This document shows, one piece after another, positions 7,392-63,745 of a stretch of 64,000 bases of DNA. This DNA comes from Ornithinibacillus caprae. GTDB lineage: Bacteria; Bacillota; Bacilli; Bacillales; Amphibacillaceae. The translations under genes and the position numbers were made by a program. The stretch lies in assembly GCF_009728145.1 (NCBI RefSeq), contig NZ_WOCA01000008.1:62001-126000 (forward strand), in the 5' to 3' direction. The notes below the pieces were generated by a model, which was not told the DNA's origin, ran no database searches, and saw nothing but the letters and a program-made list of their open reading frames with translations. The stretch's first letter is position 1. Each line of letters opens with the position of its first letter.

Positions 7392-7660
7392 AATCTCGGA
7401 AATGCTGAATTAACCGCTTGAAATGCTGAATTAACTGCTTGAAATGCTGAATTAACCGTTTGAAATGCTGAATTACATTCCAAAATGCTGAATTAACCGC
7501 TTGAAATGCTGAATTACATTCCAAAATGCTGAATTAACCGCTTGAAATGCTGAATTATACTCCAAAATGCTGATTAATAAAAGATAATACTGAATCTAGA
7601 GAGAATGAAGAGTAAGCGCAGGTCTAGTCCGTACCTCCCTGTATAAGACGCTTGCGCTTT
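7392..7660. repeat. Tandem 20-21 bp repeat (AAATGCTGAATTA) with conserved tail
   Basis: About ten contiguous units of form RAAATGCTGAATTAACCGCTT or AAAATGCTGAATTACATTCC (7392-7590) are followed by a non-repeated tail, CTAGAGAGAATGAAGAGTAAG then CGCAGGTCTAGTCCGTACC. The same units and tail recur at 63587-63745. Units abut with no spacers, so this is not CRISPR. The rest of the gap up to the flavodoxin gene contains only the Fur box and promoter. Confidence 0.8.
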
Positions 7661-43032: not shown

Positions 43033-45015
43033 ATGGACACGAACCAATATATCGAAGTGTTTTTAGACGAAAGTCGTGAGCATTTACAATCGGTCAATGA
43101 CAATCTCTTAAAGCTTGAAAAACAACCTGAGGAACTAACAATTGTCTCTGAGATTTTCCGTTCAGCTCATACGCTAAAAGGAATGGCAGCAACAATGGGA
43201 TTTGAGGATGTTGCATCCCTTACTCATCAAATGGAGAATGTACTTGATAAAATTCGTAACGGTGAATTAGTAGTCACGACAGAAGTTATTGATGTAACCT
43301 TTTCTGCTATTGAGGCGCTAGAGGAGATGGTAGAGTCGATTAGTAATGGGAATGATGGAAAGAAAGATGTCACAGAGCTAGTTTCTAAGCTTGAGAAAAT
43401 AGAAAATGGATCATCCACACATGAACTCCATGAATCTACTCCAAGTAAAACGTCTGATACCCTTTTTGAAATGGATGAATACCAATCAACGATTATCTCT
43501 CAAGCAGCAGAACAAGGATACCAGGTTGTTCAGATTACGGTTCAACTAAATGATGACTGCATTCTAAAAGCAGCTCGTGCATACATGGTATTCGAGAAAT
43601 TGGAGAATAAAGGTGAGATTGTTCAAACCATCCCCTCCGTTGAAGAAATTGAAGAGGGTAATTTTGAGCAAGATTTTTCATTGCTTATGGTTACAAAAGA
43701 AACGAATACAGATATTGAAAAAGTTATCCATAGCGTATCAGAAATTAATCAAGTGGAAGTTTCAGAGTTTACACTAGAGAAGGCAAATAACAACGAGAAA
43801 CAAGAGAGCAAACCTGAATCCGTTACACCTGATACGAATACAGAAGCACCTCAGGGAAAACAAAAACAATCGAAAACAATTCGAGTGAATTTAGAACGAA
43901 TTGACAATCTAATGAATCTGTTTGAGGAAGTTGTTATTGATCGAAGTAGATTGGAAGATCTTGCACAAAAACTCAAAGAACCAGAGCTCACTGAAACGAT
44001 TGAAAATATGACAAGGGTAACAGAAGATATGCAAGGGTTAATGTTATCGATGCGTATGGTTCCAGTAGAGCAAGTATTTAACCGTTTTCCAAGGATGGTG
44101 CGAGGTCTAGCTAAAGAACTAGAGAAAGAAATTAACCTTGAAATTACTGGTGCAGATACGGAACTAGACCGAACGGTAATTGATGAGATAGGGGATCCTT
44201 TAGTTCATTTGATTCGAAATTCCTTAGACCATGGAGTGGAGTCACCTGCTAAACGAAGGGAATCTGGTAAACCAGAGGAAGGAAATGTTTCCCTTCGAGC
44301 GTTTCATAGTGGGAATCATGTATTTATCGAAATTGAAGATGATGGTGCTGGTATTAACCGAGACAAGGTTGAGGCAAAAGCTATTGAAAATGGCTTACTA
44401 AGTGCAGAGCATTCTGAGGTATTATCTGATGAGGAAATCTATCAACTAATATTTTCTTCTGGATTTAGTACGGCTGATCAAATATCCGATATTTCCGGCC
44501 GAGGAGTTGGGCTAGATGTAGTTCGAAGTAAGATTGAATCTTTAGGGGGAAACATTATCGTAGAATCGGAACCTGGTAAAGGTAGCAAGTTTTCCATTCA
44601 ACTGCCATTAACACTTTCGATATTATCTACGTTATTAGTTAATGTGCAAGATGAAATTTACGCAGTACCTTTATCAGCGATTGTTGAAACGATGCTCCTA
44701 GATGAAACGCAAATTATGTCTGTTCAAGGACAGAAGGTAATTGATTTTAGAGGGAAAGTAGTACCAATCGTTTCATTAAGGGAAATATTCGATGTACCTA
44801 GACAAGATGAGAGTAAGGAAGAAAATGCAGTTGTAATTATTCATAAAGGAGATAAGATGGCTGGTTTATTAGTAGACTCCTTTATTGGTCAAAAAGAAGT
44901 CGTTTTAAAATCATTAGGAAACTATTTGCGTGATGTATTTGCCATATCAGGGGCAACAATTCTAGGTGATGGACAAGTGTCATTAATTATTGATCCGAAT
45001 GCATTGGTGAAGTAA
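43033..45015 (+). CDS. cheA: Chemotaxis histidine kinase CheA
   Basis: 660 residues. HPt domain (1-110) with phospho-accepting His46 in SAHTLKGMAATMGF; a CheY-binding P2 region (about 150-250); dimerisation helix (about 285-345); HATPase core with N-box HLIRNSLDHGVE, G1 DDGAGI and G2 GRGVGLDVV; and a CheW-like P5 domain (about 525-655). All catalytic elements are present. It autophosphorylates in complex with receptors and CheW and donates to CheY. Confidence 0.93.
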   Translation: MDTNQYIEVFLDESREHLQSVNDNLLKLEKQPEELTIVSEIFRSAHTLKGMAATMGFEDVASLTHQMENVLDKIRNGELVVTTEVIDVTFSAIEALEEMVESISNGNDGKKDVTELVSKLEKIENGSSTHELHESTPSKTSDTLFEMDEYQSTIISQAAEQGYQVVQITVQLNDDCILKAARAYMVFEKLENKGEIVQTIPSVEEIEEGNFEQDFSLLMVTKETNTDIEKVIHSVSEINQVEVSEFTLEKANNNEKQESKPESVTPDTNTEAPQGKQKQSKTIRVNLERIDNLMNLFEEVVIDRSRLEDLAQKLKEPELTETIENMTRVTEDMQGLMLSMRMVPVEQVFNRFPRMVRGLAKELEKEINLEITGADTELDRTVIDEIGDPLVHLIRNSLDHGVESPAKRRESGKPEEGNVSLRAFHSGNHVFIEIEDDGAGINRDKVEAKAIENGLLSAEHSEVLSDEEIYQLIFSSGFSTADQISDISGRGVGLDVVRSKIESLGGNIIVESEPGKGSKFSIQLPLTLSILSTLLVNVQDEIYAVPLSAIVETMLLDETQIMSVQGQKVIDFRGKVVPIVSLREIFDVPRQDESKEENAVVIIHKGDKMAGLLVDSFIGQKEVVLKSLGNYLRDVFAISGATILGDGQVSLIIDPNALVK

Positions 45016-45030
45016 AAGGAGGTTAATTAG

Positions 45031-45489
45031 ATGGAAAACTATATGAAGGTTATTGTCTTTACGCTAAAGGGACAACGCTTTGGTGTAGATGTACAACAGG
45101 TTATTTCTATTGAAAAAATCCAAGAAATTACGAAGGTTCCGAGGACATCCGAATTTATTAAAGGTGTCATTAATTTACGCGGGGAAACAATCCCTATTGT
45201 TGATCTGAAAGAAAGATTAGAAATTGAGCAGACAGAATCCTCACCAAATAATAGATTTCTTATTGTTCAAGTGGAGGATGTACAGGTTGGTTTAATTGTT
45301 GATTCAGCAACAGATGTTTTAGATATTAATACAGATGCGATCCAACCTGCACCTAAAATGATTGGAGGAGTACAGGAAGTCTTTTTGCAAGGTGTTGCTA
45401 AATTAGAAAGTGAATTATTAATAATGCTAGATTTAGGTCGTGTACTTGATTTAGAACAAACAAACGAAATAAAAGAAATAATAGAGTAA
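45031..45489 (+). CDS. cheW: Chemotaxis coupling protein CheW
   Basis: 152-residue CheW domain: IVFTLKGQRFGVDVQQVISI, IKGVINLRGETIPIVDLKER and FLIVQVEDVQVGLIVDSATD. Couples CheA to receptors. AAGGAGG precedes the ATG, 15 bp after cheA. Confidence 0.92.
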   Translation: MENYMKVIVFTLKGQRFGVDVQQVISIEKIQEITKVPRTSEFIKGVINLRGETIPIVDLKERLEIEQTESSPNNRFLIVQVEDVQVGLIVDSATDVLDINTDAIQPAPKMIGGVQEVFLQGVAKLESELLIMLDLGRVLDLEQTNEIKEIIE

Positions 45490-45507
45490 CTTGTGAGGAG
45501 AAAGATG

Positions 45508-45864
45508 ATGGCAAATATACTAATTACCGATGATGCTGCATTTATGAGAATGCAGATGAAAGATATATTAACAAAGCTAGGACACCAAGTCGTAGGTGAA
45601 GCAGAAAACGGTCAAGATGCTGTTGAAAAATATCAGGAGTTGCAACCTGAACTAGTAACAATGGATATTACAATGCCAGAAATGAACGGTGTTGAAGCAG
45701 TAAGAGAGATTAAAAAGATTAATCCAGATGCAAAAATAATTATGTGCTCTGCTATGGGACAGCAGGGAATGGTTGTTGAAGCAATTCAGGCAGGTGCGAA
45801 GGATTTTATTGTAAAACCATTTACTCCTGATCGGATTAAAGAGTCTGTTGAGAAAGTATTATAA
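45508..45864 (+). CDS. cheY: Chemotaxis response regulator CheY
   Basis: 118-residue stand-alone receiver. Acid pair Asp8-Asp9 (ITDDAAFMR), phosphoacceptor Asp53 (VTMDITMPEMNG), switch Ser in MCSAMGQQG and Lys in FIVKPF. Closely resembles B. subtilis CheY. ATG 45508 is 7 nt from AGGAG; in-frame GTG 45493 overlaps that site. Confidence 0.93.
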   Translation: MANILITDDAAFMRMQMKDILTKLGHQVVGEAENGQDAVEKYQELQPELVTMDITMPEMNGVEAVREIKKINPDAKIIMCSAMGQQGMVVEAIQAGAKDFIVKPFTPDRIKESVEKVL

Positions 45865-45889
45865 ATGAACAACTTGAGGTGACTAAAAA

Positions 45890-47584
45890 ATGAAAAGTAA
45901 GTTTCAATTTAAAAGTATAAGGACTAAACTATTAGTTGGTTTTTCATTAATCATTGCACTAGCATTAGTTATGGCGGTATACAATAATATAACAACGAAC
46001 TTAACTATTAATAACACGAAGGATGTAGCAGAAAAAGAGCTTCCTTTGCTAATCGCAGATGAAAAGTTAGCATATAATATGGCTGAACGAACTGCACTTA
46101 TACAAGGTTTTCTACTTTTTGACGACCCGTCTTATCGAACCAAATTTGATGATACGTTAGAAGAGAGTTTTGCATTAGAAGATACTGTACTTGAATTGAG
46201 TAGTTCTGAAAAAGTACAAGAATTAATTGATAAAAAAATACAATGGGGTACGTATACTGACCAAGTCTTTGAAGCATATGATCGTGGGGATAAAGAGCGT
46301 GCAATGGATATCATGGCTAATGATATTGAGCCGTTAGCTGAAGAACTAATGAAAGAATTTAAGGAACTGGCGGAAACAAGAGAAACAGCGATCGATCATG
46401 AGATCAGTGAGATTATATCCACTGGGAACTTAGCACTGTGGATAGGGATTGCTTTATCTATTGCGATTATCGTTATAGGTATATTAATAACCATTATTAC
46501 ATCTCAAATGATTACGAAACCGACAAAACTATTAATGGAAAGAATGAAATTGATTGCTGAAGGAAATCTAAATAATACACCATTAGAAACGAAATCTAAA
46601 GATGAAATTGGTCAACTGATGGTTGCAACAAACGAAATGAATGAAAGCATGCGTGATCTATTAACACAAATTAGTTCTGTTTCTGAGGTTGTAAACACAC
46701 AAAGTGAAGAATTAACTCAATCAGCAAATGAAGTAAAAGCAGGTTCAGAACAAATCGCAACTACTATGCAGGAGTTAGCATCGGGCTCAGAAACACAAGC
46801 AAACAGTGCAAGTGATCTTTCGTCTACGATGAGTTCATTTACAAATCTGGTACAAGAAGCAAATGAGAAAGGTGAACTAATTGAAAAAGCCTCTTCAGAT
46901 GTATTAGGGATGGCAAACGAAGGCACTCAATTAATGGAACAATCTACGAACCAAATGAATAAAATCGATGAAATTGTAAAAGATGCCATTCAAAAAGTAC
47001 AAGGTTTAGATAAGCAGTCTCAAGAAATTTCAAATCTAGTAACAGTTATAAAAGATGTTGCAGAGCAAACAAATCTCTTAGCATTAAACGCAGCAATTGA
47101 AGCAGCTAGAGCTGGAGAGCATGGAAAAGGGTTTGCGGTTGTTGCAGATGAAGTTAGAAAACTAGCAGAGCAAGTATCTAGCTCGGTAACGGATATCACG
47201 ACAATTGTTACAGGAATACAACAAGAATCCAATATGGTATCTGATTCATTACAGGGGAGCTATATAGAAGTAGAAAATGGGAAGAAGTCCTTGGTAACGA
47301 CTAGTGAAACCTTTAACGGAATTAATATGTACGTATCGGAGATGGCAAATAGTATTAAAGATGTTTCGGAAAATTTAACTACGATTGCATCTAATAGCCA
47401 AGAAATGAGTACGTCGATTGAAGAAATTGCTGCAATTTCTGAGGAATCAGCTGCAGGTGTAGAACAGACTTCGGCTTCCACACAACAAACAACTAGTACG
47501 ATGGAAGAAGTAGCAGGAAGCTCAGAGCAACTGGCTAAACTAGCAGAAGAATTGAATGGGCTAGTACGTCGATTTAAGTTATAA
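45890..47584 (+). CDS. Methyl-accepting chemotaxis protein with four-helix-bundle sensor
   Basis: 564 residues: TM1 (about 12-34), an extracellular four-helix-bundle sensor domain (about 40-178), TM2 (about 183-205), HAMP (about 206-260), then the signalling domain. The CheA/CheW-binding tip is intact in [20 protein letters not shown], with [11 protein letters not shown] after it. No ligand can be predicted. It ends the cheX operon and is followed by a terminator. No cheR, cheB or cheD lies in the window. Confidence 0.9.
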
Positions 47585-47595
47585 AGGTAACATAA

Positions 47596-47631
47596 GAAAA
47601 TGATGGTTTGTTGTTACAGGCCATCATTTTC
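47596..47631 (+). terminator. Terminator after the chemotaxis operon
   Basis: GAAAATGATGG and CCATCATTTTC form a perfect 11-bp stem with a 14-nt loop. Confidence 0.8.
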
Positions 47632-47670
47632 TAAAATTTATTTTAACATGTTGAAACGGGTGCAAATACA

Positions 47671-48384
47671 ATGGATTTTTCAGAAAACGATAATTTATTT
47701 AATGATAAAAAATTTTATCATGCTGTTCAACCGATCATAAGAGCATCTACTAAAAATGTTTTCGGATATGAAGCACTACTACGTTCTACTGATTTACATA
47801 ACCCTGAAGAAATATTTGAGCATTATAAAGAAAATGACCTCTTATTTCATCTAGATATGAGTTCCATTATGGAAGCTTGTAAAGGGTTAAAAGATATACC
47901 AAATAGGAAAGACTCCTATTTGTTTATTAATATTTTTCCATCTACTTTAATCAATCCAGACTTTTTAAAACAACTCCATAGACTACATTCCATCAATAAA
48001 CCAAGTTCCATCGTATTTGAGATTAACGAAGATGGAAAAGAAACAAATTTCTCGGAAATTAAACATGTAGTAGGGGAACTAAAACATCTAGGTTATTTAA
48101 TTGCTCTTGATGATGTTGGCAAAGGTGAGTCAAGTTTTAAAGCTTTACTTGAGTTAGAGCCTAATATTGTGAAAATTGATCGTGCATATGCTAAGAATCT
48201 AACAGAAACAACTAAAAAGCAAACGATGATTCAATTAATCATGCAACTTTTTGGTAATGATGTACCAGTGATCCTAGAAGGTATAGAAACAGAAGATGAT
48301 TTTTTGACTGCAAAAGAATTAGGTGTTCCACTAATGCAAGGCTATTATTTTGGCAGGCCGAATCAACTACAAAAATATATATAA
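47671..48384 (+). CDS. EAL-domain c-di-GMP phosphodiesterase, stand-alone
   Basis: 237 residues, a bare EAL domain. Catalytic and metal motifs are preserved: EALLR, FINIFP (NxxP position), [16 protein letters not shown] (DDFG position), VKIDR, LEGIET and QGYYFGRP. Hence hydrolysis of c-di-GMP to pGpG is likely. It lies within the motility island and downstream of two c-di-GMP riboswitches, so its activity should feed back on their state. No sensory domain is attached. Confidence 0.85.
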
Positions 48385-48412
48385 TGTCCAAATAAAGAAA
48401 TGGGGTAAAAAA

Positions 48413-50443
48413 ATGAAACTAAAAGGGAAAGGTAACAAAATAAGTTTTAACTTTTTTAATAAATCTATTAGAAATCAAATATTATTTCCATTTATATTAT
48501 TAATCATTTTTGCTGGTGTGGTAGTATCGGTTGTTAGTTATAATTATAGTGTAAAAACAACAACGGATGAATTAACGAATAGTGTTGAAGGTCAAATGGC
48601 TAATATGAATGATACGTTTGAATTATTTTTTCGAAATATTGATAATACACTGGACCTTTTTATAAGTAAGGATCTTTTAATTCAGTATGACCCAGAAAAT
48701 CGTGATGAAGTAATTCAAAATTTAGGAGAGGCAAAAGAAAGTAATACCTCTATACTAAATATTTATACGGGTATCGATCAATCAGGGGACATGATTGTAT
48801 TTCCGGTAGCTGATTTAGGGGATGATTTTAATGTCAAGGATAGACCTTGGTATCAAGATGCCGTCGCTGCAAATGGAGATACGGTTTGGACAGAACCTTA
48901 TGAAGATACGGCAACTGGTGAAATGGTAATAACAGCCGCTAAAGCCTATTACAACAACAATAATCTTATTGGTGTAATAGGAATAGACGTAACTATTACA
49001 ACATTGCTTGAAATGATAGAGGGTGTTGAAATTGGTGAAACAGGTTATGCTGTTCTAATGGACCAAGCTGGTAGCTATATCGCTCATCCAGATAGTGAAT
49101 ATATTGGAAAAGACGAGTCTGAAACAGATTATTATATAGAAATTCAAGAGAGTGGCGATCAAGGAATTGTTGACTACCATCTCGATGGTGAAGATAAAGT
49201 TATGGGATTCGCAAAAAATACTACTACAGGATGGATCATAGGTGGAACGGTTTATGTGAATGAATTTGAACAAAAAGCTAGATCTATTCTCTTACCAATC
49301 TCTATCAGTCTGGGAGTTGTTATATTACTAGCAGTAATTGCTTCTATATTTATTACTAATAGAATTACCACTCCAATTAAGAAATTACAAGTAACGATGA
49401 AAGAAGTAGAAAACGGTAACTTAGTTGCTCATGTAGATACGAATCGAAAAGATGAGGTTGGTCAATTATCTGTAAGCTTTAAAAATATGCTAGATCAGAT
49501 GCGAAACATGATGCAGAAGGTGTCTACTATTTCATATAGTGTTTCAGAAGCATCACAAACATTAGTCGCTAGTGCTGAAGAAAACACAGCATCAGCAAAT
49601 GAAGTTGCTACAACGATGGAACAAATTGCATCAGGTGCAGCGGACCAATCAGAACTAATGGAAGAAAGCTCCGCAGCTGCAAGTGGTTTATCAGAAATGA
49701 TTAAACAGATTGAAGCACAAAATAACAAGTTATATGAAGAATCAATATCAATGAAAGAAGCCTCAGAAGAAGGGGCGACTATTATTGCAGAACTACGTGA
49801 CCAATCCATTAAAACTGGAAAAATGACAAAGGAAATGGTGCAAGCTATTAACTCACTTGATAATAGGTCAACAAATATAAATAAAATCGTTGAAAAAATT
49901 ACGGATGTAGCTAATCAAACGAATCTACTAGCATTAAATGCCGCAATTGAGGCAGCTAGAGCAGGAGAAAATGGTCGAGGATTTGCAGTTGTAGCTGATG
50001 AAGTTCGTAAATTGGCTGAACAGACAGAACATGCACTTGGTGATATATCTGGATTAATCTCAGAAATGCAAGAAGAAATGAAATCTACTGTTACGTTAAT
50101 TACCAATACAGATGAAGTGATTCAGACACAAGAACAATCTGTTAATAAAACTGGCAATGCATTTAATAGTATTTCAGATACAATTAAAACGAATAATGAG
50201 CTAATTAAAAATGTAATGGGATTAATGGAGAAAATGATCGAGCAAGAGAAGAAAATAACTGCTAATATCATGAATAATGCGTCCATTAGCCAGGAAACGG
50301 CTGCTGGTACGGAAGAAGTATCTGCTTCAATTGAAGAACAGACGGCCTCCATGGAGCATTTGAATAATTTAGCTACGGAACTGGAATCCTATTCCATACA
50401 AATGCAAGAAGAAATAGAGAGATTTGTTATAACAAAACAATAA
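48413..50443 (+). CDS. Methyl-accepting chemotaxis protein with dCache sensor
   Basis: 676 residues. TM1 (about 20-42), double-Cache extracellular domain (about 50-290; [55 protein letters not shown]), TM2 (about 300-320), HAMP and a signalling domain with tip [20 protein letters not shown]. dCache receptors often bind amino acids or small organic acids; the ligand here is unknown. ATG 48413 follows TGGGGT; a longer frame upstream overlaps the EAL gene and is not supported. Confidence 0.88.
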
Positions 50444-51194: not shown

Positions 51195-52232
51195 ATGATA
51201 AAAGAAAAAACAACTATTCAAAAAACATTGATGACAGCTAGATTATTTGAAGGATTTTGGGACCGTTGGGTTGCCCACGGTGTCATTTTATCAGAAGTAA
51301 TTTATATGAAGAATACACTTATCTCCTTAAAGGATTGGGAAGCTACCTTTGAAGAGCTTGCATTAAAGCATGAGGAAGCAGCAAATAGTTATAAACAAGA
51401 AGGGCTTAGCGACAAAGCAGAAGATTCGTACCGGTTATCTAGTTTGTATTACAACCTAATCCAGTGGATTTTTCCATACTGTAATCAAGAAAAAATAAAA
51501 TGGTATCAAAAGTCTTTGGATATGGTGAAAAAAGCGGATCATTTAATGGATATTCCTTGTGAATACGACTCCATTACTGTTGACGGTGTGGAATGTCCAG
51601 GTAGGATTCGAATTCCAGAAAATTCGAAGGGCTGTATTGTAATGGTGAACCCAATTGATTCTACGAAGGAAGAGCTTTATTCCTATGAGAAGCAGTTTAA
51701 TGAATCAGGTTATATTACTGTAATCTTTGATGGACCAGGACAAGGGGAGACATTTACTTTTAATGGATTACGGGCTACGAGAGCACGATGGGAAATTTTT
51801 ATAAATCTGGTAATCGAATATGCCGCTAAAAAGTTTAAGGGGTATTCTATTAATTTATTTGGTACAAGCTATGGTGCAGCATGGACCATCTATGGCTCTG
51901 GTAACTCAAACGTAAATAAAACTGCAGTTGTAAGTCCACCAGTTGAAGGAGAGGCTTTCATTCCTAACTTTTTAGAAGATAAGATGGATCATTTTATAGA
52001 AGGTGAATCGAAGGAAGTATTACCGGTTTATCCAGATTTAGACAATTCTTCTATTCTTGTATTCCATGGAAAACAGGATGTCTTGGTTCGTAGTGAGGAT
52101 ATGAATCGATTTTTTAATTCTTTGCCAGAACCAAAGAACTTAATTGAGTATTCGGATGAAGGGAATGGCTGTAATTTTAAGCTAACAGAAATTAGGGATT
52201 TATCTATGAAATGGTATGGGGGAGAGAAGTAA
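51195..52232 (+). CDS. Alpha/beta hydrolase (FrsA/DUF1100-like) with doubtful catalytic His
   Basis: 345 residues: a helical N-terminal domain (about 1-120) and an alpha/beta hydrolase core. The nucleophile elbow LFGTSYGAAWT has Ser in the GxSxG-like position and HGKQDVLV gives the acid. The C-terminal segment, usually GxHxC with the catalytic His, is EGNGCNF here, so that His appears to be lost. Related proteins are esterases or C-C hydrolases. ATG has AAAGGA 11 nt upstream. Located before a TRAP-TAXI transporter but with its own transcript boundaries. Confidence 0.68.
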   Translation: MIKEKTTIQKTLMTARLFEGFWDRWVAHGVILSEVIYMKNTLISLKDWEATFEELALKHEEAANSYKQEGLSDKAEDSYRLSSLYYNLIQWIFPYCNQEKIKWYQKSLDMVKKADHLMDIPCEYDSITVDGVECPGRIRIPENSKGCIVMVNPIDSTKEELYSYEKQFNESGYITVIFDGPGQGETFTFNGLRATRARWEIFINLVIEYAAKKFKGYSINLFGTSYGAAWTIYGSGNSNVNKTAVVSPPVEGEAFIPNFLEDKMDHFIEGESKEVLPVYPDLDNSSILVFHGKQDVLVRSEDMNRFFNSLPEPKNLIEYSDEGNGCNFKLTEIRDLSMKWYGGEK

Positions 52233-52326
52233 CATAAGTTTAGACGAATATTTGACTGTAATCAGATAAAATACAAATTCTCTCTAACTATATAAAGCTA
52301 GTAGGCAGATTTTCGAGGTGTAAGAA

Positions 52327-52389
52327 ATGGAGATGTTGATAGAACCGTTTCAGACACCAGAAATCTTAGGAGAAGGAGTTCTTGTCTGA
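52327..52389 (+). CDS. Possible 20-residue peptide or gene stump
   Basis: ATG preceded by GAGGTG (8 nt away) opens MEMLIEPFQTPEILGEGVLV and stops at TGA 52387-52389, seven bases before a strong terminator. It could be a short peptide, a leader, or the surviving start of a deleted gene. The surrounding 432-bp gap otherwise holds only this terminator and the TAXI gene promoter. Confidence 0.3.
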   Translation: MEMLIEPFQTPEILGEGVLV

Positions 52390-52395
52390 GGGAAC

Positions 52396-52437
52396 AATCA
52401 AAAACCAGGAGCTATTATTGGTTCCTGGTTTTTGATT
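52396..52437 (+). terminator. Strong terminator upstream of the TAXI gene
   Basis: AATCAAAAACCAGGA and TTCCTGGTTTTTGATT form a perfect 15-bp stem with an 11-nt loop. Symmetrical A/T flanks allow bidirectional action. Confidence 0.9.
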
Positions 52438-52520
52438 TGTGTAGCTTCTTTAACCTATGAATAATAGCAATAAAAACCTATCCTTAATTTACAATAATCA
52501 GAAAATAGAGAATAAACGTA

Positions 52521-52548
52521 TTGAATTTTTTTCAAAAACAAGTATAAT
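52521..52548 (+). promoter_or_regulatory. Sigma-A promoter of the TRAP-TAXI operon
   Basis: TTGAAT, a 16-nt spacer and perfect TATAAT, 117 bp before the TAXI gene start. Confidence 0.6.
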
Positions 52549-52664
52549 TGTAGTATGCTTCTATACATGTGCATAGTACATAGAACATTCTTATCTTTCA
52601 TGTACTTAAGTTGTGAAAGCGATGCCATTTGGAAGCACAAAAACTATTGAAAAGGGGTATGTAT

Positions 52665-53657
52665 ATGACAAAAAAGAGATTACTAGGTTTTGTAGGTATT
52701 CTTTTTAGTGTGGTTTTATTACTTGCCGCATGTGGTGGGAGTAATAATAACGTTGCGATCGGACCTGCTGGAAGTGCTACAAACACCATTTCTAAGCTGA
52801 TCTTTGACGCATATGAATTAGAAGAAGGAGACTATAATACATTTGAAGAAGGATTTGGAGATGCAGCCGAAGGTGTTCAAGATGGTAACATCAACATTTC
52901 TGTTGGTATTTTAGGATTACCAGCTTCTAGTATTGAAAGCTTACAAGCTTCTGCTGGTGATGTAAAAATGATCAGTCTTTCTGATGAAGCTATTTCCTAT
53001 ATCGAGGAAAACAGTGCATATAGAGAAATGACTATTCCTGCAGATTCCTATGATTTTCTAGAGGAAGATGTGAAAACAGTTACTGCTTATGCGATTCTAA
53101 TGGGAAATACAAATACAATAAGTGAAGAATTAGGATATGAGCTAGCTAAAGCAATGATTGAGAACTCAAACGAAATCAGTCATGCTCAAGGTGCTCAAAT
53201 GACACTTGATAATGCATTAAATGGATTAGAAGATTTACCTATCCACCCAGGTGCAGCACGTTATTATGAGGAACAAGGCTTAGAATTTGATAATCTAGTT
53301 GCAGAACTTAATGTTGCTGACCAGCCCAATGAGTTAACACTAGGAACTGGTAGCTCTGGTGGAACATACTATCCTCTTGGTGGTGAAATGGCTACAGTTT
53401 GGAATAACAACATTGATGGAATTAATGTAACAAGTACTGAAACTGGTGCTTCTTTAGAAAACTTAGCTAGCATTCGTGATGATAAAATGGACTTAGGTAT
53501 GTCAGTACATGGTCCAGCAATTGACGCGGTAAAAGGTCAAGGTGACTTTGATGCTCCAGTTGAAAACGCAGCATTTATTGGTCATATCTATCCAGAGGTA
53601 GTTCAAATCGTAACTCGTGAAGAATTTGGTATCGACAGCTTCGAAGATTTGAAATAA
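52665..53657 (+). CDS. TRAP transporter TAXI-family solute-binding lipoprotein, circularly permuted
   Basis: 330 residues. A normal lipoprotein signal (LLLAACGG, Cys23) is followed at once by what is normally the second half of a TAXI protein: VAIGPAGSATNTISKLIFDA (from residue 30), DAAEGVQDGNIN, IPADSYDFLEEDVKTVTAYA, ending IHPGAARYYEEQGLEF, which is the usual C-terminus. A linker (about 208-221) leads to the usual N-terminal half, NELTLGTGSSGGTYYPLGG (from residue 222), through to EEFGIDSFEDLK and stop. In normal members SFEDLK is followed directly by GKxVAIG. So both lobes are complete but swapped. ATG 52665 is 7 nt from AAAGGGG. Ligand unknown. Confidence 0.88.
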   Translation: MTKKRLLGFVGILFSVVLLLAACGGSNNNVAIGPAGSATNTISKLIFDAYELEEGDYNTFEEGFGDAAEGVQDGNINISVGILGLPASSIESLQASAGDVKMISLSDEAISYIEENSAYREMTIPADSYDFLEEDVKTVTAYAILMGNTNTISEELGYELAKAMIENSNEISHAQGAQMTLDNALNGLEDLPIHPGAARYYEEQGLEFDNLVAELNVADQPNELTLGTGSSGGTYYPLGGEMATVWNNNIDGINVTSTETGASLENLASIRDDKMDLGMSVHGPAIDAVKGQGDFDAPVENAAFIGHIYPEVVQIVTREEFGIDSFEDLK

Positions 53658-53710
53658 AACGCTGATTATGATAATTTCATAACATCGACTTACCGCATGT
53701 AAAAAGGATA

Positions 53711-53742
53711 GGGATCTTTGCTAAATAAGATCCCTTTTCTTT
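53711..53742 (+). terminator. Attenuating hairpin between TAXI and permease genes
   Basis: GGGATCT and AGATCCC pair around a 10-nt loop with a CTTTTCTTT tail. Likely allows partial read-through so that the binding protein exceeds the permease. Confidence 0.6.
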
Positions 53743-53771
53743 CTACCTAATTTAAGAAGGGGTGTGGTTAG

Positions 53772-55739
53772 ATGAAAGAAAACCAACAAGTCGATCAAGA
53801 TAAGACAAAGGAAATACTAGAGAAATACGATAAGGAAAGTAATTTCCGAGTTAACATAGGAAAATGGGCCTGGGTGATCACTTTTCTAGGTGTATCGTTA
53901 ACAGTTTTCCATTTATATACAGCTGCCTCAAGTGTTTTACCATCCCAACAGCAAGGTGCTATTCATTTAGGTACTGCCTTAGGAATTATCTTTTTACTTT
54001 TTCCAGCTAAAAAAGGATTACAAAAAAAGCAAAAAACAGTTCCATGGTATGATGTTTTATTAGCGTTTACAGCTATGTATGCTGGATATCATAAGATTAT
54101 ATTCTATGATCGATTGTCTCTTGCAACGATTAACGGGTATACGACGTTCGACATTATTGTAGCGATAATTGGTATCGTATTATTACTTGAAGCTACTAGA
54201 CGTACAGTTGGTGTTCCAATTATTATCGTAGCAGGGATTATGATTCTTTATACGCTTTTTGGAAGCTATATTCCAACACAAGTCCTATCACATGCTGGAT
54301 TCTCACTCAATGACATAACTACTAACCTTTGGTTTAGAACAAGTGGTGTGTTTGGAACTCCTATCCAAATTTCCGCAAAATTTATCTTCCTTTTCCTATT
54401 CTTCGGTGTCATTCTTGTGCATACGAAAATCGGACGGTTTTTCAATGATTTAGCATTTGCTCTAACTGGAAGGTATACAGGCGGTACTGCCAAAGCGGCC
54501 GTAGCAGCTAGTTCGTTACAAGGTATGGTTTCAGGGAGTTCAGTTGGGAACACAGTTGCCTCTGGATCATTTACGATTCCAATGATGAAGCGTGCAGGAT
54601 TTAAGCCAGAGTTTGCGGCAGCAACAGAAGCTTCTGCTTCTACTGGCGGACAAATCATGCCACCACTTATGGGGGCTGCAGCCTTCATTATGATGGAGTA
54701 CTTAGGTGTAGATTATGGCACAGTTATGTTAGCAGCAGTTGTACCAGCAATTTTATACTTCTCTGGTATCTTTATTGGAACACACTTTGAAGCGAAGAGA
54801 TTGCGAATTCATGGGTTGCCGAAATCAGAATTACCAAGTTTTCGTAAGCTAATGGTTAAGAATGGTTTTATGCTTCTTCCATTGTTCATTATTGTTGGAA
54901 CAATCTTAGTTGGTTACACTCCACAAAGAGCGGCACTAATGGGGATTATTTCCGCGTTTATTATAAGCTTTATCCGTAAAGAGACACGTATGGGCTTTCG
55001 AAAAATAATTGATGTTTTCGAGCAAGGTGCACGTGTTGCACTTCCAGTAATCGCGGCCTGTGCGACAGCAGGTATTATCGCAGGAGTTGTAAGTATCACA
55101 GGTCTTGGTAATAAATTTGCTGCTGGTATTATAGCCTTGTCAGGTGGAATATTACCATTTGCATTAGTCTTTACGATGGTTGCATGTATCATTTTAGGTA
55201 TGGGATTACCAACAACAGCAAACTATGTTGTAACAGCAACCATTGCTGCACCGGTTCTTATTAACGAGTTTGCCGTTGCACCAATCGCTGCACACATGTT
55301 TGTGTTTTACTTTGGTATCGTTGCTGATATTACTCCACCAGTTTGCTTAGCGGCATATGCTGGTGCAGGTATTGCCAGGGCGAATCCGTTTAAATCAGGT
55401 GTGAATGCTGTCAAACTAGCCATAGCAGCATTTATCGTACCGTATATATTCATCTATAACCCGATTCTAGTATTAGTGGATGCAACCCCTGTCATGTTCA
55501 TTATTTCTGTAACAACAGCGTTATTAGGAATTATGGCGGTAAGTAGTTCCGTTATCGGATTCTTCATCCGTAATTCTAAAGGCTGGGAAAGAATCCTTTT
55601 ATTCGCAGGGGGAATATTAATGATTTTACCAGAAGTTCTTACCAGTTCGATTGGTATTGTCATTATGTTAGCAGTATGGTTTATTCAAAAACAGCGTGAA
55701 GATGATGGAGGAAAAGTTACGATACAAGGGTCTGTTTAA
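53772..55739 (+). CDS. TRAP transporter fused permease (DctQM, TAXI type)
   Basis: 655 residues with about 16 or more TM helices: an N-terminal DctQ-like part (about 30-180) fused to the DctM part. Family landmarks: AASSLQGMVSGSSVGNTVAS, FAAATEASASTGGQIMPPLM, CIILGMGLPTTANYVVTATI and FGIVADITPPVCLAAYAGAG. It imports a carboxylate or similar anion delivered by the TAXI protein, driven by an ion gradient. ATG follows AAGGGGTG. Confidence 0.9.
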   Translation: MKENQQVDQDKTKEILEKYDKESNFRVNIGKWAWVITFLGVSLTVFHLYTAASSVLPSQQQGAIHLGTALGIIFLLFPAKKGLQKKQKTVPWYDVLLAFTAMYAGYHKIIFYDRLSLATINGYTTFDIIVAIIGIVLLLEATRRTVGVPIIIVAGIMILYTLFGSYIPTQVLSHAGFSLNDITTNLWFRTSGVFGTPIQISAKFIFLFLFFGVILVHTKIGRFFNDLAFALTGRYTGGTAKAAVAASSLQGMVSGSSVGNTVASGSFTIPMMKRAGFKPEFAAATEASASTGGQIMPPLMGAAAFIMMEYLGVDYGTVMLAAVVPAILYFSGIFIGTHFEAKRLRIHGLPKSELPSFRKLMVKNGFMLLPLFIIVGTILVGYTPQRAALMGIISAFIISFIRKETRMGFRKIIDVFEQGARVALPVIAACATAGIIAGVVSITGLGNKFAAGIIALSGGILPFALVFTMVACIILGMGLPTTANYVVTATIAAPVLINEFAVAPIAAHMFVFYFGIVADITPPVCLAAYAGAGIARANPFKSGVNAVKLAIAAFIVPYIFIYNPILVLVDATPVMFIISVTTALLGIMAVSSSVIGFFIRNSKGWERILLFAGGILMILPEVLTSSIGIVIMLAVWFIQKQREDDGGKVTIQGSV

Positions 55740-55754
55740 TTCATTTTGATAGAT

Positions 55755-55788
55755 AGCTACTAAGATTTTCAGTCTTGGTAGCTTTTTA
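55755..55788 (+). terminator. Terminator of the TRAP-TAXI operon
   Basis: AGCTACTAAGA and TCTTGGTAGCT (one G-U) with a 7-nt loop and T5. Confidence 0.85.
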
Positions 55789-55792
55789 TTTT

Positions 55793-55840
55793 GGAGATAG
55801 GAAAGTCCTATCCTGCAAAAGCCTTAGTTTTTTTCCAAGG
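55793..55840. repeat. Dispersed hairpin repeat, short copy
   Basis: AGATAGGAAAGTCCTATCCT then GCAAAAGCCTTAGTTTTTTTCC: the hairpin and an internally deleted body of the 15281 element, once more directly behind a terminator. Between it and 56006 I see only the leader of the MFS gene. Confidence 0.6.
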
Positions 55841-56006
55841 GAAATGTTACTTCGACAAAATCCGATTATTTCCTCGGAAATAATTAGGAAACGTAAATGC
55901 GTTTTCTGTTAAGTGTTGCCACATGTGGGTTGATGAAATATTAAATTTTCTAATATTCCTTCAATATGCTATAGTTAAAGATAGGTTATTTGAAGGGGCG
56001 AGCAAC

Positions 56007-57212: not shown

Positions 57213-57249
57213 AAGTGATTTAAGGAACGGACGCTAAAGTGGGATTTTC

Positions 57250-57716
57250 GGACGTAGGAGCGCAAACATCGGACACAAAAGCGCAAACATCGGACACAAA
57301 AGCGCAAACATCGGACACAGGAGCGAAATCGTCGGACGCAGAGCGAAACTATCGGACACGGGAGCGAGAACATCGGACACAGGAGCGAGAACATCGGACA
57401 CAGGAGCGAGAACATCGGACACAAAAGCGCGAACATCGGACACAAAAGCGCGAACATCGGACACAAAAGCGAGAACATCGGACACAAAAGCGCGAACATC
57501 GGACACAAAAGCGCGAACATCGGACACAAAAGCGCGAACATCGGACACAGGAGCGCGAACATCGGACACAGGAGCGCGAACATCGGACACAGGAGCGCAA
57601 ACATCGGACACTGGTGCGTAAACATCGGACACAGGAGCGAGAACATCGGACACAAAAGCGCGAACACCGGACACAGGAGCGCAAACATCGGACACAGGAG
57701 CAAGAACATCAGACAC
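57250..57716. repeat. 21-bp tandem repeat array (CATCGGACACAAAAGCGCGAA)
   Basis: About 22 contiguous 21-bp units of ACATCGGACACARRAGCGMRA, with degenerate units at the left (TCGTCGGACGCAG) and right edges. The period is a multiple of three and units lack stops, so long reading frames appear on both strands (heptads such as REHRTQE or CPMFALL); these are by-products. No spacers, hence not CRISPR. One plus frame runs into pxpB. Function unknown. Confidence 0.85.
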
Positions 57717-57763
57717 ATAATCCCAAATATCAGACTCCTCTAAATCCAATCGAGGTGATTACT

Positions 57764-58489
57764 ATGAAATTAACTGCTATAGGTGATTCAGGCATTAAAG
57801 TAGAGTTTCCTGGAGAGGTAACTACTAAACTAAATCAAGTGATACAACAGTTTTGTGTTGCGCTACAAGATGCTGAGATTTCTGGTGTGATCGAGTGGGT
57901 ACCAGCGTTTAACTCAGTAACCATTTATTATGATCCTACTATCATATTATTCCATGAATTAGCTGAGAAAATGAATAGATTGGTATCAACGAAAACCAAT
58001 CAGTTTGATCCTGTAACTCAGTTATTTCATGTACCAGTACTATATGGTGGAAATGTAGGTCCGGATCTAGAGAGGGTTGCTAGTTACAATAATCTATCAA
58101 TCGAAGAAGTGATTAAGCTACATCAACAACCAAATTATTTTGTATATATGATTGGCTTTCTACCAGGATTCCCTTATCTAGGTGGTTTAAATCCTATAAT
58201 TGCAACACCTCGTCTGGATGAGCCGAGAAAGTCTACATTTGCTGGTGCGGTGGGAATTGCTCATGAGCAGACCGGGATTTATCCAATGGAATCACCTGGT
58301 GGTTGGAATATCATTGGGAAAACACCTATTAAGTTGTTTCGACCAGAACAAAGGGAAGAAGTTTTTCAGTTTAAAGCTGGGGATATGATTCGGTTTTACG
58401 AGGTCTCTAAGGAAGAATTTCAACACATTACGGATCAGGTAGATGCTGGAGTTTATAAACTTAAACAAGAGATCATAGAAAATAACTGA
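57764..58489 (+). CDS. pxpB: 5-oxoprolinase subunit PxpB
   Basis: 241 residues of the KipI/PxpB (AHS1) family: IPTFNSVTIYYDP-like segment WVPAFNSVTIYYDP, YMIGFLPGFPYLGGLNP, and GIYPMESPGGWNIIGKTP. With PxpA and PxpC it forms ATP-dependent 5-oxoprolinase. The true start is ATG 57764, 5 nt after GAGGTGA; the frame is open for another 175 codons upstream only because of the repeat array. Confidence 0.87.
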   Translation: MKLTAIGDSGIKVEFPGEVTTKLNQVIQQFCVALQDAEISGVIEWVPAFNSVTIYYDPTIILFHELAEKMNRLVSTKTNQFDPVTQLFHVPVLYGGNVGPDLERVASYNNLSIEEVIKLHQQPNYFVYMIGFLPGFPYLGGLNPIIATPRLDEPRKSTFAGAVGIAHEQTGIYPMESPGGWNIIGKTPIKLFRPEQREEVFQFKAGDMIRFYEVSKEEFQHITDQVDAGVYKLKQEIIENN

Positions 58490-58505
58490 AAGTGAGGTGG
58501 CTGTT

Positions 58506-59273
58506 TTGCAGAAGCGAATTGATTTGAATTGTGATATGGGAGAAAGTTTTGGTGCCTTTAAAATTGGATCCGATGAAGAATTAATGAAATGGATTACTTC
58601 TGCCAATATTGCATGTGGTGCTCATGCTGGTGATCCACATGTCATGGATCGAACGGTACAGTTAGCAAAACAATATGGGGTAGCTATAGGAGCACACCCT
58701 GGTTTTCCTGATTTAGCTGGTTTTGGTCGAAGGGTGATGGACTTTTCTTCAGATGAGATTTATCGATCGGTAATCTATCAAATTGGAAGTTTGCAGGCTT
58801 TTTGCCATATCCATGATGTTCAGATGAAACACGTAAAACCACACGGTGCATTATATAATCTTGCCGCACGTAATCGGCAGGTAGCCGATGCGATTGCGAA
58901 GGCTGTATATGATTTAGACAGTTCATTAGTATTATTTGGGCTAGCGGGAAGTGAATTATTAGCTGCTGGTCGTGCTATTGGTTTAGCTGTTGCATCGGAG
59001 GTTTTTGCTGACCGTAGTTACCAGCCGGATGGAAGTCTTACCCCTCGTAATCAGGAAGGTGCTCTTATCGAAGACGTGAATCAAGCAGTGACACAAGTAA
59101 CACAAATGGTTGCTGCTGGTGAGGTAAAGGCTTTGAATGGTGAAACCATTGCTATAGAGGCGGATACGGTTTGTATACATGGTGATGGTACAGATCCAGT
59201 TCGATTTGTAACCAAATTAAGAGAGAGTTTAGCGGATGATGGAATGGAAGTAGTTACCTTTGATCAGAATTGA
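58506..59273 (+). CDS. pxpA: 5-oxoprolinase subunit PxpA (LamB/YcsF)
   Basis: 255 residues. IDLNCDMGESFG, SANIACGAHAGDPHVM, GAHPGFPDLAGFGRR and VKPHGALYN are LamB/YcsF hallmarks. It converts 5-oxoproline to glutamate together with PxpBC and ATP. Start TTG 58506 is chosen, 7 nt from GAGGTG; GTG 58497 overlaps that site. Confidence 0.9.
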   Translation: MQKRIDLNCDMGESFGAFKIGSDEELMKWITSANIACGAHAGDPHVMDRTVQLAKQYGVAIGAHPGFPDLAGFGRRVMDFSSDEIYRSVIYQIGSLQAFCHIHDVQMKHVKPHGALYNLAARNRQVADAIAKAVYDLDSSLVLFGLAGSELLAAGRAIGLAVASEVFADRSYQPDGSLTPRNQEGALIEDVNQAVTQVTQMVAAGEVKALNGETIAIEADTVCIHGDGTDPVRFVTKLRESLADDGMEVVTFDQN

Positions 59274-59334
59274 TCCGAAGAGGTGAGAACATAAAGTTCT
59301 TAAATATCCCAAGTTAATCAAGAAGGTGTTACTA

Positions 59335-60279
59335 ATGGCAAGTCAACAAATTTTTCATGTTGTTAAACCAGGTTTGATGACAACATATCAAGATATGGGG
59401 CGGGTTGGCTACCAACGCTTTGGAGTGCCAGTTTCTGGTGCAATGGATCGTTTTTCCCTACAAATAGCTAATATATTGGTTGGTAATAGGCGGGATGAGG
59501 CTTGTCTAGAAGTAGCCTTAATAGGTCCTGAATTAGTAGCCGGACAATCGATGACGATTGCTATTACGGGGGCTGATCTTGAGCCTAAAGTTAATGGACA
59601 ACCAAAGCGGATGTGGACTTCATTTCGGGTTGAAAAAGGAGACCGTTTAACTTTTGGACAGCAACATGCAGGAGTATATGCATATATCGCTGTTGCAGGT
59701 GGTTTTGATTGTCCAACTTTTCTTGGAAGTAAATCAACGGATGTAAAAAGTGGTTTTGGTTCTCCATTAGAAAAACAGGATAACATATGTGGAAACCCAA
59801 TGATTACAACAGCTGGTGTCGGTATATTTCCTACAAGTATCCCAACCTATCCCAAACATGTTAAGGTCGGAGTTATAGAAGGACCACATACGGAGTTATT
59901 TTCGCATGCAGAGCGAAAGCATTTTTATGATAAAGTTCATACATTAGAGGCGAACTCTAATCGTATGGGGTATCGACTTCGTACGGATACAGATCAGTGG
60001 AAAAGCAAGACTAGTATATGGTCAGATGCCGTTCCAATTGGTGCTATTCAAATTCCTCCAAATGGTCAACCAATCATACTTATGGCTGATCGACAAACAA
60101 CAGGTGGTTACCCACGCATTGGAACGGTGATATCTAGTGATCTTCCTAAAGTAGCCCAACTAATACCACGTGGTAAAATTAGCTTTTATCCGATATCCGT
60201 CGACAAGGCCCAACAGTATGCGATTGCTATGGAAAAATATCTTCGTAAATTAACAATATTTCGTAAATATATTCATTAA
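59335..60279 (+). CDS. pxpC: 5-oxoprolinase subunit PxpC
   Basis: 314 residues of the KipA/PxpC (AHS2) family: TTYQDMGRVGYQRFGVPVSG near the N-terminus, AITGADLEPKVNGQP, and PIGAIQIPPNGQPIILMADR with QTTGGYPRIG late. Full length. ATG 59335 follows AAGGTG. Confidence 0.9.
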   Translation: MASQQIFHVVKPGLMTTYQDMGRVGYQRFGVPVSGAMDRFSLQIANILVGNRRDEACLEVALIGPELVAGQSMTIAITGADLEPKVNGQPKRMWTSFRVEKGDRLTFGQQHAGVYAYIAVAGGFDCPTFLGSKSTDVKSGFGSPLEKQDNICGNPMITTAGVGIFPTSIPTYPKHVKVGVIEGPHTELFSHAERKHFYDKVHTLEANSNRMGYRLRTDTDQWKSKTSIWSDAVPIGAIQIPPNGQPIILMADRQTTGGYPRIGTVISSDLPKVAQLIPRGKISFYPISVDKAQQYAIAMEKYLRKLTIFRKYIH

Positions 60280-63586: not shown

Positions 63587-63745
63587 ATGAAATACTGAAT
63601 TAGTGAGTAGATGTGCTGAATAAATTTTGGAAATGCTGAATTAGTCGCTTGAAATACTGAATTATTCTCCAAAATGCTGAATAATCAAATATAATGCTGA
63701 ATCTAGAGAGAATGATGAGTAAGCGCAAATCCAGTCCGTACCACT
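63587..63745. repeat. Second AAATGCTGAATTA repeat cluster with the same tail
   Basis: About six diverged units (GAAATACTGAATTAG, AAATGCTGAATTAGTCGCTT, AAAATGCTGAATAATC) are followed by CTAGAGAGAATGATGAGTAA and GCGCAAATCCAGTCCGTACC, matching the tail after the array at 7392. Both clusters lie right behind a gene end. Confidence 0.75.

Follow-up and report, generated by a model that had tools for sequence, protein, structure and literature searches.

A Naturally Circularly Permuted Variant of the TAXI Family of TRAP Solute-Binding Lipoproteins in Ornithinibacillus caprae and Its Relatives

Introduction

The closest described relatives of the protein analysed here are the standard TAXI-type solute-binding proteins of TRAP transporters (family models TIGR02122 and PF16868), among them VcGluP (structures 8s4j and 9ibo) and the T. 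thermophilus protein (1us4 and 8u79), which share both of its sequence blocks and the conserved residues of its close kin, and which likewise have a lipoprotein signal and an adjoining fused TRAP permease. PMC11574862 states that a large proportion of TAXI proteins are reportedly lipoproteins, terms VcGluP a Cluster F protein, and divides it into domain 1 (residues 29–115 and 268–328) and domain 2 (132–254), with hinge strands at 116–131 and 255–267. The permuted form differs from these standard members in that its blocks stand in reversed order, its termini and lipid anchor lie in lobe 2, the tether behind the anchor is short, and a new linker is present.

PMC4990184 presents TpMglB-2 (Tp0684), for which the label “Type Ic / Cluster Bc” is proposed, as another natural permutant of a bilobed binding lipoprotein; its authors consider tethering likely for most of its homologues and mention anchoring as one possible explanation of the arrangement. 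It differs from the present case in its glucose ligand and its ABC or chemoreceptor context, and its fold is of Type I. The glycine betaine-binding proteins, in the sections of PMC2395249 that compare them, are structural circular permutants among themselves within the bilobed solute-binding fold, but they are ABC-type and less than 24% identical in any compared pair, versus about 48% between the normal and permuted forms here. The Bordetella TAXI-GltS protein, as described in PMC12344293, is also a lipoprotein of unusual TAXI architecture, but it has extra domains ahead of a standard binding domain and a GltS membrane partner.

The letters “permut” do not occur in the texts of two recent TAXI papers (PMC12344293 and PMC11574862), and where PMC3454389 and PMC7683729 touch on permutation, it is in engineered sensors or reference lists. 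Natural permutation of binding proteins is known from TpMglB-2 and the glycine betaine-binding proteins; in open-access papers that link permutation to TRAP, TAXI or other solute-binding proteins we found no permuted TRAP protein. We argue below, with a probability of about 0.9, that a gene of Ornithinibacillus caprae encodes a functional TAXI-type TRAP solute-binding lipoprotein that is a natural circular permutant.

Block Order of the Window Protein

The DNA analysed (“the window”) is a 64,000-nucleotide stretch of the O. caprae genome. Its open reading frame at 52665–53657 on the plus strand encodes 330 amino acids from an ATG at 52665, as earlier described, and the parts of the locus are as follows:

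52665..53657, plus strand: circularly permuted TAXI-family TRAP solute-binding lipoprotein, 330 aa (from the HMM block order)
52665..52730, plus strand: lipoprotein signal peptide, ending LLLAA/C (from the sequence)
52731..52751, plus strand: lipobox Cys and short tether, CGGSNNN, ahead of the first strand (VAIG)
52752..53282, plus strand: block A, the usual C-terminal part of a TAXI protein, VAIGP...HPGAARYYEEQGL (TIGR02122 positions 144–320)
53283..53330, plus strand: new linker from the old C-terminus to the old N-terminus, EFDNLVAELNVADQPN
53331..53654, plus strand: block B, the usual N-terminal part, ELTLGTGSSGGTYYPLGG...SFEDLK (TIGR02122 positions 26–140)
53710..53735, plus strand: terminator-like hairpin between the binding-protein and permease genes
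53772..55739, plus strand: fused TRAP permease, 655 aa (TIGR02123, 724.7 bits, cut-off 320.65)

Both family models match the reading frame in two stretches, Pfam NMT1_3 (PF16868) with 213.2 bits against a cut-off of 27 and NCBIfam TRAP_TAXI (TIGR02122) with 221.3 bits against a cut-off of 84.35. The HMM search of the organism's own genome placed TRAP_TAXI positions 144–320 at 114752–115279 of contig C39, followed by positions 26–140 at 115316–115654. The protein passes the TIGR02122 and PF16868 family scores, yet its model positions are not collinear; it is a permuted variant of the TAXI family and not a standard member. Against the solved TAXI protein 8s4j its C-terminal block corresponds to chain residues 6–115 and its N-terminal block to 119–298, and a profile–profile comparison of the permuted with the normal alignment covered only 180 columns, in which the first block of one pairs with the second half of the other. 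HMM, BLAST and profile–profile comparisons all bear out the reversed order of the TAXI halves given in the preliminary description of this DNA.

The chain has been opened in a loop that reads DLK-GKx-VAIG in normal kin. There the junction is unbroken (for example DLKGKRVAIGPPGSG / DLKGKRVAIG), just as had been claimed when the SFEDLK end of standard members was said to join directly to GKxVAIG. The only model positions absent between the blocks are 141–143, the GKx loop, and the near-invariant residues are kept, so the assertion that nothing essential is missing holds in the sense that no conserved block has been lost. The halves are homologous to those of an unpermuted relative, the old termini are joined and new termini lie elsewhere, which are the marks of a natural permutant.

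Position of the Break and of the Lipid Anchor

AlphaFold2 modelled the permuted protein with a pLDDT of 88.5 and a pTM of 0.80 from an alignment of 30 rows, all sharing the permutation, and a normal-order sister with values of 87.0 and 0.80. On our reading of the models, the predicted elements appear in rotated order (residues are numbered on the translation from 52668; one is added for numbering from the ATG): the N-terminal strand E27–31 of the permuted protein is E167–169 of the sister, its hinge strands E135–147 and E301–317 are E273–285 and E136–152, and its C-terminal helix H325–328 is H160–163. On these models block A (strands E27–31 and E135–147) comprises the second hinge strand together with most of lobe 2 and the C-terminal portion of lobe 1, and block B (strand E301–317 and helix H325–328) contains the remainder of lobe 1, the first hinge strand and the first short helix of lobe 2.

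Foldseek aligned the normal model with solved TAXI chains over 298–304 columns in the seven chains listed, with target TM values of 0.89–0.90 for 8u79, 1us4, 9ibo, 8s4j and 4ddd and 0.78–0.79 for two 9ibp chains. The permuted model aligned with 9ibp and 9ibo over 202–203 columns with target TM values of 0.45–0.50 in the three chains listed, the sequential Foldseek alignment covering the collinear part only. Among the best 50 Foldseek rows for the permuted model a TAXI protein came first and no glucose/galactose-binding protein was named. Full-length matches of this model included the glycine betaine-binding OpuAC (target TM 0.56–0.58, rmsd about 9 Å); with rmsd values of about 7–10 Å, the full-length OpuAC and PhnD matches were not used as proof.

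The cut between 8s4j chain residues 115 and 119 corresponds to about VcGluP 143/147, on the assumption that the 8s4j chain starts at residue 29. It therefore falls inside domain 2 (132–254) and after the first hinge strand, and both hinge strands survive. The earlier reading of the cut as a lobe boundary was mistaken, and the blocks are not the lobes: the chain has been opened at a surface loop of lobe 2, which leaves lobe 1 contiguous and lobe 2 split.

The lipid anchor has accordingly moved to lobe 2, on a very short tether. The distance from the Cys to the first strand is 6–19 residues (median 7, n = 67) in permuted proteins and 8–44 residues (median 25) in normal ones, the latter from 40 of 45 proteins, since five rows without a pattern lipobox were left out (in two of these, L060 and L097, a Cys is nevertheless present that escaped the pattern). 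The p-value for this difference takes no account of relatedness among the proteins and carries no weight here. A lipobox-like pattern, loosely defined, occurs in all 67 distinct permuted proteins, an export signal is predicted, and every one of the 30 rows of alignment A1 has the lipobox Cys, so the lipoprotein signal does appear to have been correctly re-placed, as had been suggested. The new linker holds a DNPxAEL-like stretch in many A1 rows, and the HPGA-to-LGTGS distance is 31–34 residues in 66 of the 67 permuted proteins (those in which both motifs were found).

Distribution of the Permuted Form

Genomes were searched with profile A1, built from 30 permuted proteins, at E-value limits of 1e-80 or 1e-100. 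Permuted TAXI genes were found 72 times in 70 genomes belonging to two Bacillota and two gammaproteobacterial family groups (we take Halomonadaceae and Aeromonadaceae to be gammaproteobacteria; the analysis itself gives Pseudomonadota). The window's own family has 32 such genes in 30 of 159 genomes, 14 of 397 genomes matched in the sample of the order (11 of them new, all in a second family), and the family groups of the Oceanisphaera and Halomonas genomes gave 10 of 75 and 19 of 201 genomes, respectively. All 72 full-length profile matches are permuted, a figure that reflects conservation of the form and not its share among TAXI genes, since strict limits and a permuted-only profile favour permuted matches; block order was checked by positions in 71 genes with a wide neighbourhood and separately in the 72nd (L023, genome G072). 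Among 28 loci from genomes of named species 16 are permuted, 11 normal and one undecided, and carriers of the permuted form include Paucisalibacillus, Oceanobacillus, Ornithinibacillus, Filobacillus, Alkalibacillus, Oceanisphaera arctica and an uncultured Halomonas. At 1e-60, a sample from across the Bacillota gave, beyond the own genome, one match in 299, the normal-order half-match L097, and of 257 plasmid records with a match none spanned 80% of the query in one place.

These results bear on the possibility that the reversed order is an assembly error, or a collapse of two tandem normal-order genes, peculiar to this genome. The order recurs in the 72 genes and 70 genomes of two phyla, at least four of which are listed with one contig (G074, G172, G196 and G394), and the linker length is nearly fixed in the measured proteins. 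A protein search of the own genome gave one match, the window gene itself, and no second TAXI gene or normal-order copy; its sole other TRAP_TAXI match spans 46 positions and scores 26.6 bits, under the cut-off. Nothing was found in favour of such an artefact; the relatives refute it as a general account, and we give it a negligible chance of being the explanation. The permutation had been called rare as well as natural: natural it is, but it is no private oddity, being the property of a conserved clade that is present in another phylum as well.

Phylogeny and Selection

The protein trees started from 67 distinct permuted proteins and 45 normal ones; the permuted set was thinned to 39 and, with the 45 normal ones, rearranged into the same order to give 84 rows. 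The permuted proteins form one clade (support 100/98) nested among normal-order Bacillota proteins, of which L024 and L097 are nearest to it, and the clade is retained at 100/97 when five rows are dropped for their long branches or odd make-up; L100 and L107, also flagged as long, stayed in. The ten rows from gammaproteobacteria group together (100/98) within a permuted clade of 34 rows (100/99) whose other members are Bacillota, and this nesting points to transfer from Bacillota. A quick permease tree without bootstrap placed the permeases of permuted operons on one side of a single branch (SH-aLRT 99) from 19 normal ones, with 24 gammaproteobacterial permeases of permuted operons in one group (100), which suggests that binding-protein and permease genes moved together as one operon. 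Judged from these trees, the permutation most likely arose once, in Gram-positive bacteria (Bacillota), and later entered the gammaproteobacteria.

The permuted form is under strong purifying selection. Median dN/dS is 0.05 and the highest value 0.14 in the 57 pairs with dS below 1.5, out of 128 pairs with more than 84% identity, and no internal stops were seen in the listed genome matches of permuted genes. When the 67 permuted proteins were compared with 25 of the 45 normal ones, the nearer ones being chosen, 36 near-invariant columns were common to both forms, with no fixed difference at that threshold. Low dN/dS and retention of conserved residues thus favour the earlier suggestion of selection for function. 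They also argue against the view that the gene is a rearranged relic, expressed or not, that has no transport function. Six permuted loci do lack an adjoining permease, among them a branch that is long in the tree (below), as that view might lead one to expect; a permease adjoins the other 65 of 71, however, and taken together these observations leave it very improbable, though less so than an assembly artefact.

The Permease and Other Neighbours

The fused permease reported downstream scores far above the TIGR02123 cut-off, as listed above, and is the likely partner of the permuted binding protein; such a gene lies directly downstream in the 65 loci just mentioned. The permuted chain would still work as a Venus flytrap that shuts on an acidic amino or keto acid, and would then pass the ligand to the permease. 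Between the two genes, the hairpin at 53710..53735 is a possible attenuator: an inverted repeat resembling it was seen by eye in two same-genus relatives, and the region 52230–56000 has five terminator-like sites where 2.1 are expected from shuffles.

Five of the six permuted loci without an adjoining permease (L154–L157 and L201) make up one gammaproteobacterial branch, long in the tree and of the same family group as Oceanisphaera, in which hisG is the next gene. Its relatives L150 and L198–L200 have the TAXI, permease and a LysR gene together ahead of hisG, and for that reason the orphan branch appears to have lost a permease that once stood at this site. All five of its genomes hold other fused permeases. 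By eye, L154–L157 show a gap of about 0.5 kb before hisG with an apparent his leader peptide. The sixth locus, L209 (contig 10 of genome G050), is a second permuted TAXI gene of its genome and possibly an extra binding protein for the permease that adjoins the other copy, L221. These six loci may serve another role.

Could the chief role of the protein be signalling, for example presentation of the ligand to a chemoreceptor, and not transport? Upstream of the operon, at window positions 44008–50440, lie genes for an EAL protein and for chemotaxis components (a CheW-domain kinase, a response regulator and two MCPs); members of the MCP cluster are found near 5 of 21 loci, and the permuted TpMglB-2 has been studied, according to PMC4990184, as a putative chemoreceptor. 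The adjacency to a permease and the history shared with it are far more constant, and we think a chiefly signalling role improbable, if somewhat less so than a functionless relic; transport with the adjoining permease remains our preferred reading.

The neighbours give a clue to the substrate in gammaproteobacteria. Among the 29 gammaproteobacterial permuted loci surveyed (L150–L157, L169 and L182–L201; the 10 normal-order comparison loci are from Bacillota), 23 have HglS, a 2-oxoadipate dioxygenase/decarboxylase, at a distance of up to about 6.5 kb and 13 have a 2-aminoadipate transaminase homologue within 9.5 kb, and two representatives of each exceed the NCBIfam equivalog cut-offs. Because of these neighbours we suggest 2-aminoadipate or 2-oxoadipate as the gammaproteobacterial substrate, one carbon longer than glutamate, the known TAXI ligand, or than the keto acid of glutamate. 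HglS was found near none of the 42 permuted TAXI genes of Bacillota and in none of the 159 genomes of the window's own family, so it was dropped as a general partner and the aminoadipate suggestion is confined to gammaproteobacteria. Around the permuted TAXI gene, the HglS and transaminase homologues are grouped in several different ways, as parts of a lysine or aminoadipate catabolic unit might be.

Downstream in the window, CT_C_D, LamB/YcsF and CT_A_B genes stand in a row at 57720–60276 and presumably encode a PxpABC 5-oxoprolinase. These 5-oxoprolinase-type genes were set aside as a substrate clue, since no more than 2 of 71 permuted loci, one of them that of the window, have homologues of two of these genes.

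Origin of the Permutation

Duplication followed by trimming is the commoner route to circular permutation, and we guess that it was also the route taken here, which is plausible. Most likely, an in-frame tandem duplication of a TAXI gene would have come first, after which the signal peptide of the second copy and the stop between the copies would have been lost, the first copy deleted from just after the lipobox Cys to VAIG, and the second copy truncated after DLK. A deletion reaching VAIG would also have removed the long flexible linker and so have produced the short tether. Only later would the operon have moved from Bacillota into the gammaproteobacteria. Alternatively, two half-genes made separately could have been joined in the opposite order by fission and fusion, with no duplication or trimming. 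The nearly fixed linker length fits a defined fusion event equally well. Neither a tandem intermediate nor a split pair was found in 81 stretches (71 permuted, the window included, and 10 normal), each of which has one copy of each block, an outcome that does not tell the two routes apart. As duplication and trimming is the more usual mechanism, we regard fission and fusion as unlikely, though a far more serious contender than the alternatives weighed above, and prefer the former.

The above observations can be combined into a broader proposal, a “TAXI-c” subfamily, which we put forward tentatively and with the odds somewhat against it in its entirety. A single ancient permutation would have been favoured because anchoring by the opposite lobe on a very short tether alters presentation to the TRAP permease; the pair would then have spread from Bacillota to gammaproteobacteria for 2-aminoadipate or 2-oxoadipate catabolism, and one branch would have lost the permease while its binding protein stayed upstream of the his operon.

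The normal and permuted forms share about half of their residues and stand beside a homologous permease in nearly all of the loci examined, and they constitute a natural experiment on which lobe must carry the anchor, on the minimum tether, and on chain order versus Venus-flytrap closure and TRAP docking. It is an apparently single permutation event that seems to have been kept under selection and passed between phyla. Family models name the permuted proteins without flagging the permutation, and a sequential structural search recovers only part of them.

Tandem repeats occur elsewhere in the window. About 22 copies of a 21-bp unit, TCGGACACAGGAGCGCGAACA, lie at 57248–57717; the array is open in several frames and, as called, runs into the reading frame that carries the CT_C_D domain (a carboxyltransferase domain) and that probably begins further downstream than called. 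Two distant places, 7399–7577 and 63631–63682, have a different 21-bp tandem repeat, with the core AAATGCTGAATTA in common.
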